38,692 nt of DNA, taken from positions 47,119 to 85,810 of the forward strand of contig JAPLES010000024.1 in the NCBI GenBank assembly GCA_026391075.1. The letters run 5' to 3'. The notes below the pieces were generated by a model. It worked only from the letters and a program-made list of their open reading frames with translations, made no database searches and was not told the origin of the DNA. The position numbers and the translations under genes are program-made. This stretch comes from Bacteroidota bacterium. Lineage in GTDB: Bacteria > Bacteroidota > Bacteroidia > Chitinophagales > LD1. Position 1 is the first letter of the stretch, and each line of letters begins with the position of its first letter. Positions 19,554-31,040 of the stretch are shown piece by piece.

Positions 19554-20270
19554 TTGCCTTTTCAATCATCAATTATCAATCATCAATCATCAATTCCCTG
19601 CATTGTTCTTGCAGGTGGCTTAGGCACTCGTCTTCGCGGAGTGATTAATGATTTGCCGAAACCTATGGCCATGATTAATGGCAACCCATTTCTGCATTAC
19701 GTTTTCGTTTATCTCGCCAGGCAAAAAATTAAAAAGGTAATTCTATCAGTAGGTTACAGAGCTAATGTGATTGAATCTTATTTCGGTGATAATTATTTGG
19801 ATATAGAAATTGTTTACAGTAGAGAAGATGAGCCATTAGGTACGGGAGGCGGAATTAAGAAAGCATTTGAGCTGGTAGATGATTTTGCGTTTGTATTGAA
19901 TGGTGATACTTTTTTTGACGTAGATTTAAATGCGCTGCACAAGTTCCATCTACAAAACGTAGCCGATATTTCCCTTGCCCTGAAACCAATGAAAAGCTTC
20001 GACCGGTACGGAACTGTTCAACTACGGGAGAATAGAATCATAAATTTTGTAGAGAAAAAATTTTTAGCCGAAGGGCTCATCAACGGTGGCGTTTATTTTT
20101 TCGGCAAAAATATTTTTGAAAATATTGACCAAGAAAAATTCTCTTTCGAAAAAGAAGTTTTGGAGAAATTGGTTTCGCAAAAAAAACTCTGCGGAAAAAT
20201 CTACAACGATTACTTCATTGACATCGGTATTCCTGAAGATTATGCGAAAGCGCAGCAGCAGATGAAATAA
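19554..20270 (+). CDS. HddC-like heptose-1-phosphate nucleotidyltransferase
   Basis: Belongs to the sugar-phosphate nucleotidyltransferase family. The signature IVLAGGLGTRLRGVINDLPKPM starts near residue 16, followed by the metal/substrate motif VLNGDTFFDVD (~112-122) and the late FIDIGIPEDYAKAQQ. With gmhA it would make GDP- or ADP-D,D-heptose, hence the HddC reading, but a generic NDP-sugar role cannot be ruled out. The start is odd: the only in-frame candidate is a TTG at 19554, and the first ~14 residues are encoded by a heptamer tract (19562-19596) that reads SIINHQSS-like. Family members begin almost directly at 'xxxxIVLAGG'. The real start may be TTG, a rare ATT, or the gene may rely on coupling to gmhA. 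Confidence 0.82.
   Translation: MPFQSSIINHQSSIPCIVLAGGLGTRLRGVINDLPKPMAMINGNPFLHYVFVYLARQKIKKVILSVGYRANVIESYFGDNYLDIEIVYSREDEPLGTGGGIKKAFELVDDFAFVLNGDTFFDVDLNALHKFHLQNVADISLALKPMKSFDRYGTVQLRENRIINFVEKKFLAEGLINGGVYFFGKNIFENIDQEKFSFEKEVLEKLVSQKKLCGKIYNDYFIDIGIPEDYAKAQQQMK
19562..19596. repeat. Degenerate heptamer tandem tract (TCAATCA-type)
   Basis: Five units: tcaatca, tcaatta, tcaatca, tcaatca, tcaattc. The tract lies at the apparent 5' end of the hddC-like gene, 15 nt after the gmhA stop. It may have displaced the original start codon. Confidence 0.8.
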
Positions 20271-21161: not shown

Positions 21162-21218
21162 ATTGAATATTTAAAATTGAATATTGAATTGACTGCTAAC
21201 TGCCGCTGCCTACTGCGG
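21162..21218. repeat. Two adjacent heptamer tracts (ATTGAAT and ACTGC-type)
   Basis: Units attgaat (21162), atttaaa (21169), attgaat (21176) and attgaat (21183) are followed by gactgct (21191), aactgcc, gctgcct and actgcgg (to 21218). Period 7 holds in both halves, but the unit changes. The tract fills the space between sucD and mlaF and ends at the mlaF stop. Confidence 0.8.
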
Positions 21219-28595: not shown

Positions 28596-28607
28596 GGGGC
28601 GAATATA
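28596..28607 (-). promoter_or_regulatory. -7-like box abutting the GlcD-type gene start
   Basis: On the minus strand TATATTCGCCCC ends directly at the ATG (28593-28595). It is one base off TAnnTTTG. The sequence 4 to 38 nt further upstream is a heptamer tract, so the -33 position falls inside the repeat. Confidence 0.45.
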
Positions 28608-28610
28608 TTG

Positions 28611-28645
28611 GGAATGCTGAATTTGGAATGCAGAATGCGGAATGT
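28611..28645. repeat. Degenerate heptamer tandem tract (GGAATGC-type)
   Basis: Units ggaatgc (28611), tgaattt, ggaatgc (28625), agaatgc and ggaatgt (to 28645). It lies between the bactofilin stop and the GlcD-type gene start. Confidence 0.78.
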
Positions 28646-28659
28646 GAAAACAAAAATTC

Positions 28660-29121: not shown

Positions 29122-29997
29122 TCAGAATGCAATATAATCTTTTGGGTTTAAACTTTTGCCCTCGTGCCATAGCTCGAAGTGGAGGTGAGGTCCGGTTGAA
29201 AGCTCGCCTGTGCTACCAACAATTGCTATCACATCGCCAGCTTTAACCACACTGCCTGCTTTTTTAATAATGCGTGAATTGTGTTTATAGAACGACACCA
29301 AATTGTTCGGATGTTGCACAGCAATTACATACCCTGTTTCTAATGTATAAGCCGCTGAAATTACTTTACCATCGAGTACCGTTTTTACAGGCGCATCTTC
29401 CTTGGCGGCAATGTCCACTCCGTAATGTTCTTTGGCGGCATTGTATTCATCGGTTACATATCCATCAATTGGTTTCATAAGGTGCATCTGTTTTACCTCA
29501 TCTACGGCACCGTTGTTTAGGTTCCCGTTCATGCTCAACGAAAAATTATCTTCTTCCTCTACTTGCTTGCGTAATTCTTCCTCATCGGCATTTATTTCGT
29601 TCAGTTTTATTTTCGACTTATCAATGTTTCCACCGGCCTCGGGTTTTGGGCGCGTGCTGTCAATATTTCCTTCTGCCACTGCCATTACATTTTCAAGCCA
29701 CACCTGCCTGCCTTTCATTTCTTCCTGCAGGGAATCGGTTTTAAACTGCAACTTCAAAATTTGTGAGCGGTAATTGTAATCGCCAAAGCCCGGAATAAAA
29801 TATTTGAGCGGGGTGTAAATAATTGCAGCCGCTGTTAAAAAGATAAGCGTAAAAGCCACCACACTCAAAAACACCCACACGTTTCTGCGCGTGAGCGATA
29901 GTGAAAATTTTTCTTCAAAGGTTTCATCGTTAAGCACTACAAACCTGAAACGGTTGCGCAGGTTTTTGTTTTGCGATGTCTTTATCTTTTCAGCCAT
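29122..29997 (-). CDS. Membrane-anchored M23 peptidoglycan peptidase
   Basis: A 291-residue LytM-type endopeptidase predicted to cut peptide cross-links in the periplasm. The N-terminus is cytoplasmic and basic, then one transmembrane segment (residues ~41-62) and a coiled-coil-like region (~75-150) precede the M23 domain. All zinc and catalytic motifs are present: HYGVD (His191, Asp195), His239 in SFYKHN, and HLH (His271, His273) in STGPHLHFEL. So the enzyme looks active rather than a degenerate regulator. It is followed by a bactofilin gene in the same direction. The ATG is preceded by TACATTTGCGGCTCC, a clear -7-like box. Confidence 0.93.
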   Translation of the reverse strand: MAEKIKTSQNKNLRNRFRFVVLNDETFEEKFSLSLTRRNVWVFLSVVAFTLIFLTAAAIIYTPLKYFIPGFGDYNYRSQILKLQFKTDSLQEEMKGRQVWLENVMAVAEGNIDSTRPKPEAGGNIDKSKIKLNEINADEEELRKQVEEEDNFSLSMNGNLNNGAVDEVKQMHLMKPIDGYVTDEYNAAKEHYGVDIAAKEDAPVKTVLDGKVISAAYTLETGYVIAVQHPNNLVSFYKHNSRIIKKAGSVVKAGDVIAIVGSTGELSTGPHLHFELWHEGKSLNPKDYIAF

Positions 29998-30012
29998 GGA
30001 GCCGCAAATGTA
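29998..30012 (-). promoter_or_regulatory. -7 element before the M23 peptidase gene
   Basis: On the minus strand TACATTTGCGGCTCC runs up to the ATG, with TACATTTG matching TAnnTTTG exactly and 7 nt left before the start codon. The expected start of transcription lies at or within a few bases of the ATG. It probably drives both the peptidase and the bactofilin gene. Confidence 0.55.
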
Positions 30013-30168
30013 AATTAGATATGCAAAGGGCGAAGAGATGACGCAATAGAGAGTCTATGTTCTCTCACCTCACAGCAACATTTTATCTGCCTTACTAAAC
30101 AACTCATTGATTTTCAAACTCATTTTTCGGCACCACTTTATCACGGCCTTACCTTAACTATTCATAAA

Positions 30169-30336
30169 AATTTCGAAACGAACAGTGCATGTTTCCGAAT
30201 GAACACAAATAGTTTCGAAACGAACAGTAAAGATTGCGCGGTGAACAGTTTTAGTTGCGCGGTGAAACGTAAAAGTTGCGCGATGAAATGTAAAGGTTAC
30301 GCGGTGAACAGAAAAAGTTTCGAAACGAACAAAAAT
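30169..30336. repeat. Eight-unit array of 21-nt direct repeats
   Basis: Eight consecutive units of exactly 21 nt fill 168 nt (starts at 30169, 30190, 30211, 30232, 30253, 30274, 30295, 30316). Positions 3-4 (TT), 6 (C) and 12-14 (GAA) are invariant. Positions 8-11 switch between AAAC (units 1, 3 and 8; unit 2 is degenerate) and CGGT or CGAT (units 4 to 7). The A-class contains the palindrome TTTCGAAA. There are no spacers, so it is not a CRISPR array. The spacing equals two turns of B-DNA. Confidence 0.88.
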
Positions 30337-30420
30337 AGGTGGACTTGAAGGACAAACCTTCGGTAGTACTAACTATTCGTAATTAGTGATTGAAATCCCA
30401 AAAAGGAAAATAAGTAGGAG

Positions 30421-30744
30421 TTACTTTGGGCTACAAGTAGCCTTGCCGCCTTTGTTGAAATAAGCCGGGTAAGGTTCTTCACCCGATTGATTGGTGCAGA
30501 AATCGTAATTATAAGTAGAAGCTGTAGGAGCACAGATATAACCGTAAGTTGAGTCGGCTGTAATAGCGGCTTTGTATTGCTGCTCGGTAGCAAAACTATC
30601 GCGGCATAGAACGTGTGAGAAGGAGTGGGTGCCTACTGTGAGCGTGCATTGCTGACAGTCATTAAAACAGTGAAAACATTTTTTGCAGGCGGCATTGCAC
30701 AACAAAAAAACAGCGGCAGTAAATCCAATAACCAGTTTTTTCAT
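30421..30744 (-). CDS. Small Cys-rich lipoprotein
   Basis: A 107-residue protein with a lipoprotein signal peptide (MKKLVIGFTAAVFLLCNAAC) and a lipobox ending at Cys20. The mature part begins CKKCFHCFNDCQQC, a tight cluster of five cysteines in 14 residues, and contains three more (CRD, CAP, CTN) plus one near the C-terminus (ATCSPK). The cluster could bind a metal or form disulfides; the sequence cannot decide. I do not recognise a family. No partner gene is evident: the 21-nt array lies downstream of its stop and a tRNA gene lies upstream on the other strand. Confidence 0.7.
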   Translation of the reverse strand: MKKLVIGFTAAVFLLCNAACKKCFHCFNDCQQCTLTVGTHSFSHVLCRDSFATEQQYKAAITADSTYGYICAPTASTYNYDFCTNQSGEEPYPAYFNKGGKATCSPK

Positions 30745-30830
30745 GAAGTTTAATTGATGGAGTAAAGATATAAAGAGGAGGGAGAGGGCAAAGGTTAACG
30801 CAATAATGCAAACGGGGTTTTATATCAACT

Positions 30831-30865
30831 TTGATTTCTACTTCTAATTTTTACTTTTGCGCTCC
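30831..30865 (+). promoter_or_regulatory. Promoter of tRNA-Leu
   Basis: A -33 TTG (30831-30833) lies 18 nt before TACTTTTG (30852-30859), which matches TAnnTTTG. The following CGCTCC is like other start regions here. The first base of the mature tRNA is at 30893, leaving a short 5' leader for RNase P. Confidence 0.6.
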
Positions 30866-30892
30866 CTTTTTAAAGAGGGCAGTTCATTGAAT

Positions 30893-30974
30893 GCGGGCGT
30901 GGCGAAATTGGCAGACGCACTAGACTTAGGATCTAGCGCCTCACGGCATGTGGGTTCAAGTCCCTCCGCCCGCA
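30893..30974 (+). tRNA. tRNA-Leu (anticodon UAG)
   Basis: 82 nt fold as a class II tRNA: acceptor stem GCGGGCG (30893-30899) with CGCCCGC (30967-30973) and discriminator A at 30974; anticodon stem CTAGA/TCTAG around loop CTTAGGA, giving anticodon TAG (UAG, reads CUA); an extended variable arm; T-loop GTTCAAGTC. CCA is not encoded, so the tRNA end needs RNase Z (rnz is in this window) and CCA transferase. Confidence 0.95.
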
Positions 30975-30990
30975 CAAGATCATGGTGTAA

Positions 30991-31040
30991 TGTGCAAACG
31001 TGTGTATGTGTTTTTGTAAAACACATTGACCGTTTGCGCA
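30991..31040 (+). promoter_or_regulatory. Two-stage hairpin between tRNA-Leu and tig
   Basis: The outer stem is TGTGCAAACG (30991-31000) with CGTTTGCGCA (31031-31040), 10 pairs with one G-U. A small internal loop follows, then a perfect inner stem ATGTGTTTT (31006-31014) with AAAACACAT (31018-31026) and a 3-nt loop. No T run follows, so it is not a normal terminator. It ends 39 nt before the tig ATG and would lie in its leader if tig is transcribed from the tRNA promoter. Confidence 0.65.

Follow-up and report, generated by a model that had tools for sequence, protein, structure and literature searches.

The repeat array and its neighbourhood

Within the window (the whole stretch of 38,692 nucleotides that was analysed), an intergenic gap lies between two genes of the reverse strand. 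On one side is a gene for a Peptidase_M23 protein of 291 aa, identified with Pfam (29122-29997, reverse strand), and on the other an ORF of 107 aa (30421-30744, reverse strand) that looks lipoprotein-like by eye and has no Pfam match; a tRNA-Leu and trigger factor follow past it. The gap between the end of the M23 gene at 29997 and the next ORF at 30421 measures 423 nt and holds an array of 21-bp units (30169-30336, no strand assigned), which lies upstream of the M23 gene and downstream of the stop of the 107-aa ORF.

Direct reading and alignment of the array give eight contiguous 21-nt units without any indel, built around the core TTNCGNNNNGAAC. The lag-21 autocorrelation of the array reaches a z of 10.3; among the 168-bp stretches of the window that do not overlap it, the highest value is 5.4 (lag 54). 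TRF also calls period 21 at the array. The units fall into classes according to the block at positions 8-11, which reads AAAC in class A, GAAT in the single A' unit and CGGT or CGAT in class B. Read on the forward strand, the order is A (30169-30189, TTTCGAAACGAAC), A' (30190-30210, TTTCCGAATGAAC), A (30211-30231), four B units (30232-30252, TTGCGCGGTGAAC; 30253-30273, with GAAAC at its end; 30274-30294, the CGAT variant; 30295-30315, a TTACG variant) and a final A (30316-30336). Position 5 tracks the class, being T in A and A' and G or A in B, and the unit ends carry GTT on the left in six of the eight units and AAC on the right in six of the eight. A preliminary description of this DNA had reported the exact contiguous units, the block that switches between AAAC and CGGT, the unit order and the length of the gap, and all of these hold. 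The search core that it proposed, TT.CG......GAACA, has two positions too many: it matches 58 times in the genome and never in the array. Pairs of TTNCGNNNNGAA at 21 bp match exactly five times in this 3.6-Mb genome, always inside the array.

The array is followed by a 27-bp tail, AGGTGG.CTTGA.GGACAAACCTTCGG (30337-30363, no strand assigned, direct reading). Array and tail together are bracketed by a 13-nt direct repeat with 12 of 13 positions identical (30155-30167 and 30370-30382). Promoters of Bacteroidota have a -7 box with the consensus TAnnTTTG, which TACATTTG (30005-30012, reverse strand, direct reading) fits. Because it sits in 25 bp beside the M23 start (30004-30028) that are identical in the genome of the window (G000) and in two congeners, G004 and G015, a promoter specific to the M23 gene may lie between gene and array, which would place the array upstream of that promoter. 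Between 29990 and 30440 there are no inverted pairs of at least 12 nt, and within 29900-31000 a tRNA alone passes the Rfam cut-off. A CRISPR array was rejected as an identification, the units being contiguous and diverged rather than identical repeats with unique spacers. Elsewhere in the window, short tandem repeats with periods of 7 and 14 nt occur at 1-24, 19562-19594, 21162-21189 and 28607-28648.

Conservation of the locus

A relative of the M23 protein is present in all 60 genomes searched. Among the 29 M23 loci with scannable upstream sequence (of 30 loci), two carry the array: that of the window and that of G015, whose M23 protein is 91% identical. The G015 array adjoins the same gene and has a similar class order in nine units, namely A, A', two intermediates (TTGCGAAGC and TTCCGCTAT), B, B, B, B and A, and 25 of the 27 tail positions are the same beside it. 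An IS256-like transposase, recognised by eye, lies directly past this array (locus L035), followed by the end of the contig. The class layout is, judged from the orthologue, old: G015 has A at both ends, A' in second place and B in units 5-8. Over the 17 units of the two arrays, six of the 21 columns (3, 4, 6, 12, 13 and 14) are unchanged, which are the very positions first listed as invariant, and the changes are unevenly spread (p 0.03). Unit number differs by whole units, eight in G000 and nine in G015; at another locus, L104, the counts are 15 and 13 (trimmed by eye).

The preliminary description had read the difference between A and B as selection for two binding or pairing states. Since G015 holds intermediate units, duplication with point mutation would fit the class difference as well. 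It had also named, as an observation that would speak against a function, a close relative whose homologous gap lacks the array without effect. G004, the nearest congener (M23 protein 96% identical), is such a relative in having no array at the locus, but its gap is not homologous, because a different gene lies upstream and the copy of the lipoprotein region is on another contig. In the order as a whole, a strict unit-junction pattern matched G015 alone, that is at least 1 of 396 genomes, a lower bound because the pattern misses the window array itself.

These comparisons bear on the possibility that the array is a mobile minisatellite element, a MITE with tandem units, of the BrickBuilt kind. 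In the passages of PMC4596501 that we draw on, BrickBuilt of Porphyromonas gingivalis has a 23-nt unit, is found 19 times and possesses a leader, a tail and inverted-repeat ends. The arrays described here resemble it, as far as those passages go, in belonging to Bacteroidota, in being intergenic, in consisting of contiguous, spacer-free short units and in occupying many loci per genome, and the imperfect 13-nt repeat around array and tail also speaks for an element of this kind. They differ from the element of those passages in their 21-nt units and mostly locus-specific sequences. The gap has no inverted repeats of the kind searched for, and the exact core pairs confined to this one locus leave the window array single in its genome, with no copies of the same element elsewhere. 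The upstream copy of the 13-nt repeat, moreover, is not seen in G015 despite the orthologous array, so that the repeat is possibly due to chance. We consider a mobile element quite improbable.

Arrays of the same period in related genomes

An initial pattern search gave 26 matches in 10 of 99 genomes (13 for the reversed control pattern) and by chance exposed other 21-nt arrays with a different sequence. A motif-free scan by lag autocorrelation (periods 12-60 or 10-60) found intergenic arrays in G000, G004, G010, G015, G016 and G017 with periods of 21 (14 rows), 42 (10), 41 (4), 40 (1) and 14 (1). In an array-rich set of 1.13 Mb sampled from six congeners and scanned with a single threshold per period, there were 21 intergenic matches at 21 nt, 19 at 42, three at 41 and one at 40. 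The 17 periods of 13-30 other than 21 together gave two intergenic matches, one each at 14 and 24, and nothing was found at the remaining eight periods from 37 to 47. From every period two N-masked loci had been subtracted, listed as such for periods 20, 21, 22, 41 and 42 and inferred for the others from the constant background of two. Having 21 of 23 matches at period 21 corresponds to p ~1e-24 under equally likely periods, a value less extreme in truth since the 21 matches are 18 distinct places. Matches at 21 or 42 make up 23 distinct places, which include two on G016 contigs chosen by pattern, the window array and one G017 array known beforehand.

An array-poor set (1.13 Mb from seven congeners and two family members) gave three intergenic matches at 21 nt, one of them coding-looking. 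A set of 80 named Bacteroidota loci (1.46 Mb) gave five raw intergenic matches at this period, namely two N runs, one coding-looking repeat, one heptamer repeat and one weak match. In a crude spectrum with ORFs of at least 300 nt removed, lag 21 is raised in the rich, poor and named sets alike (z 13.4, 4.0 and 9.5), and the series 42, 63, 84, 105 and 126 is conspicuous in the rich set only; coding leakage into this spectrum is likely because other multiples of three are raised too. The window array is one of many non-coding arrays in related uncultured bacteria. Their occurrence is patchy among congeners, some show a 42-bp higher-order structure, and by rough ORF calls they lie in six convergent, 12 codirectional and five divergent gaps (23 rows with both flanks called). 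Small fibronectin-III gene copies at L104 in G000 and at L286 and L292 in G004 each have a 21-nt array upstream, and between the two G004 copies the array sequences have diverged with the period unchanged.

A period of seven codons naturally raises the question of protein-coding heptad repeats. Both 21 and 42 are divisible by three, two frames of the window array are open, and purines in the motif-free sets have a 3-bp signal (p 0.001 to 0.018, nominal). Coding repeats of 21 nt are also common in the named set, with 14 raw matches, of which five or six are N-run background. In the array-rich set, coding matches are most numerous at periods 18, 27 and 45; period 21 has a single one and period 42 has four. 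Against a coding role, 10 of the 26 arrays examined have stops in all six frames, and open frames (14 of 23) are not commoner than after column shuffling (15.0 +- 2.0). The 3-periodicity of conservation is not significant (p 0.078), the window array has no third-position excess (0.29, 0.41, 0.26), and arrays of 41 bp exist. Translation of the array as part of a conserved small protein, the other counter-argument foreseen at the outset, finds no support in these open-frame tests, and we regard a coding role as very improbable. Long coding repeats with a collagen-like look (GXX) do occur at L101, L111 and L284, with periods of, for example, 18, 45, 51 and 54.

Two further sources were considered. 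Mobility of the REP/RAYT type is not informative here, since array-rich and array-poor congeners do not differ in it: 18 of 18 have Y1_Tnp at E <= 0.001, and 17 of them are over the cut-off. Viral contigs were searched with two patterns, one giving a single match that lacks an array and the other none.

Sequence drift, indels and helical spacing

The arrays differ in sequence far more than in format. Among 26 arrays, consensus agreement is high between orthologues (0.96 for the window and G015 arrays, 0.90 for L104 and L286) and in one G017 pair (0.91). Overall, 26 of the 325 pairs lie at or above 0.47, where the 99% level of a column-shuffled null falls, with about three expected; most of these are orthologues, paralogues or members of a TTTCC..GGAA group largely picked by pattern. 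Five pairs outside these groups (L259-L106, L266-L116, L116-L106, L116-L108 and L282-L261) may reflect a weak common sequence trend. One motif shared by all arrays was rejected, the consensus differing between most of them. Column-wise constraint in single arrays is low, with 1 of 15 other arrays at p < 0.05. Two of 60 genomes have a TTCC-N4-GGAA pair spaced at 21 bp, namely G017, which was known beforehand, and G010, the sole independent case; none of the 60 has such a pair at 20 or 22 bp.

Length, by comparison, hardly changes. When the 26 arrays, with their 303 units and 6364 nt, are aligned by profile, they show 1647 differences from the consensus and four indels, three of them in one array; four flank alignments contain 171 mismatches and five gaps (Fisher p 0.0007). 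Indels per substitution are therefore about 12 times rarer in the arrays than in these few flanks, a ratio to be read with the makeup of the samples: one flank alignment is only 60% identical and two make use of a single L104 flank, the ends of the arrays were set by eye, orthologues and paralogues are among the arrays, the count of differences goes by unit rather than by event, and array and flank alignments were made by differing methods. Substitutions have an ordinary spectrum, with a ts/tv of 0.87 for 21 arrays and 0.99 for flanks, for which reason the divergence of the arrays looks like normal ageing and A-directed or error-prone copying is not supported. Taken together, the data suggest that spacing, rather than sequence, is being kept.

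Column conservation in 20 motif-free arrays stands out most at 10.5 bp (p 0.028; adding the window array gives 0.018, and the 15 longer arrays give 0.051), values that are nominal, ten harmonics and three features having been examined. This is suggestive of a helical signal. An earlier p of 0.003-0.005 for the same harmonic was inflated by motif-picked arrays and has been withdrawn, and two other harmonics, one of A/T (5.25 bp) and one of purines (21 bp), are gone in the unbiased set; an A/T signal at 2.6 bp is present in the motif-free sets (p 0.002 to 0.009, nominal). Intrinsic curvature was rejected as a common property, since the summed wedge bend of 25 arrays shows no excess over column-shuffled 21-bp repeats (mean rank 0.505).

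Self-complementarity of the units opens the possibility of transcribed tandem hairpins, in which each unit would form an RNA stem-loop with a role in recruiting a protein or in protecting or terminating the transcript. In 14 of the 26 arrays, self-complementarity exceeds what three non-Watson-Crick rules give (e.g. L106 0.75, L077 0.80 and L063 0.78), several of the high values belonging to arrays that had been picked with a dyad-like pattern. In L116, Watson-Crick pairing gives a clearly higher covariation (1.05, at most 0.61 otherwise), in L106 covariation peaks at the hairpin centre (1.48, with one other rule at 1.63), and paired changes are visible in L106 and L121. Summed over the 26 arrays, however, Watson-Crick covariation is 12.5, compared with 11.7, 13.2 and 11.8 for the other rules, and the Rfam result for the region names no structured RNA other than the tRNA. 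The window array itself shows neither an unusually stable fold nor unusual covariation: its complementarity is 0.47 against 0.49 under a mirror rule, and its RNA folding is ordinary (z 0.13 and -0.46), which also weakens the idea of pairing states. The other arrays are mixed. As RNA would not explain an exact 21-nt pitch either, we judge hairpins improbable.

Two candidate readings: phased binding rows or a mutational process

Iterons and multi-operator arrays consist of direct repeats at whole helical turns, which allow bound proteins to share one face of the DNA; iteron repeats are about 17-22 bp long and spaced by whole helical turns. The window array resembles them in its direct repeats at this spacing, and the whole-turn spacing noted early on gains support from a 21-bp period that recurs in arrays of differing sequence across the genus, from the depletion of indels and from the trend at 10.5 bp. 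It is unlike them in that no Pfam initiator is found among nine window proteins round the array (two without a Pfam match), so that nothing points to an iteron here, and in that many differing arrays occur per genome.

We tentatively favour, with a little less than even confidence, the reading that the arrays are rows of DNA sites, kept at a distance of two helical turns so that proteins can bind them cooperatively on one face. The array would offer eight short, loosely dyad-shaped sites round TTNCGNNNNGAAC on one face of the helix. A candidate dimeric or polymerising protein, nucleoid-associated or repressor-like, would bind the units side by side and so form a row. An indel of 1-2 bp would twist part of that row off the face, which is why spacing would be held as the unit sequence drifts, and units would be gained or lost in whole 21-bp steps. 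A spacing held to whole helical turns is seen in the period lock and the indel depletion, with the 10.5-bp signal in support; binding, cooperativity and any effect on neighbouring genes or on chromosome folding are our inference. As the consensus differs between most arrays, one specific binder is not indicated; the different sequences would require several binders or a loosely specific one.

The main rival would dispense with function altogether. The arrays would be neutral minisatellites that arise by mutational duplication in two-turn steps (e.g. by paired nicks or by slippage with a fixed 21-bp geometry) and then age as point mutations build up, while indels are purged through loop-directed repair or through exchange between units. 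Differing sequences in a single format, the representation of every gene context, whole-unit changes in number between orthologues and the 42-bp higher-order structure would all follow from such a process. The evidence divides accordingly: the differing sequences, mixed gene contexts, patchy occurrence among congeners and little column-wise constraint in most arrays lean towards a mutational process, and the indel depletion, the class order kept in G015 and the 10.5-bp signal lean towards selection on spacing. A neutral process requires a length-measuring step not known so far, must account for four indels against 1647 differences in diverged units, and does not predict the 10.5-bp conservation or the class layout kept in G015. 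We regard it as a real possibility and would nonetheless lean against it.

If phased binding rows are the correct reading, the broader hypothesis would be that part of one genus carries a genome-wide "phased satellite" system, with dozens of intergenic arrays that are free in sequence, selected for a two-turn spacing of B-DNA and used as docking rows by a putative DNA-binding protein, cooperative in its action, whose role would be to organise the chromosome or to insulate genes. This wider proposal seems to us doubtful.

Relation to known repeats

Bacterial non-coding minisatellites usually have assorted unit lengths or are copies of one element. Among the literature matches listed, which leave subscription papers largely outside their coverage, there is no description of an array class locked to 21 bp. 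The available passages on the tandem repeats of archaeal Borgs (PMC9879509) describe locus-specific sequences thought to have arisen locally, some of them intergenic, and in these respects the present arrays are similar; Borg repeats are there generally perfect and of variable unit length, with 14-38% of intergenic unit lengths divisible by three, whereas the arrays here have diverged units of fixed length. The TAACTGA heptamer arrays of Beggiatoaceae, Cyanobacteria and a few Bacteroidetes are likewise intergenic direct-repeat arrays across the genome, and differ, in the part of the account at hand (PMC4679880), in having one fixed 7-nt sequence where 21 nt and many sequences are found here. 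Lake bacteria also carry intergenic tandem repeats, in passages that do not state the unit length (PMC9426551).

A clade whose arrays mostly differ in sequence, keep 21 bp (or 42) and contain few indels would offer a natural experiment on helical phasing. The 21-bp lock suggests one of two causes, an architectural DNA-binding protein not described so far or a mutational mechanism with a ruler of two helical turns. The intergenic arrays of period 41 bp, at L092 in G000 and at L110 and L123 in G017, are perhaps a sister class of the 21-bp arrays, and two of them (L092 and L110) contain GC-rich inverted repeats recognisable by eye.
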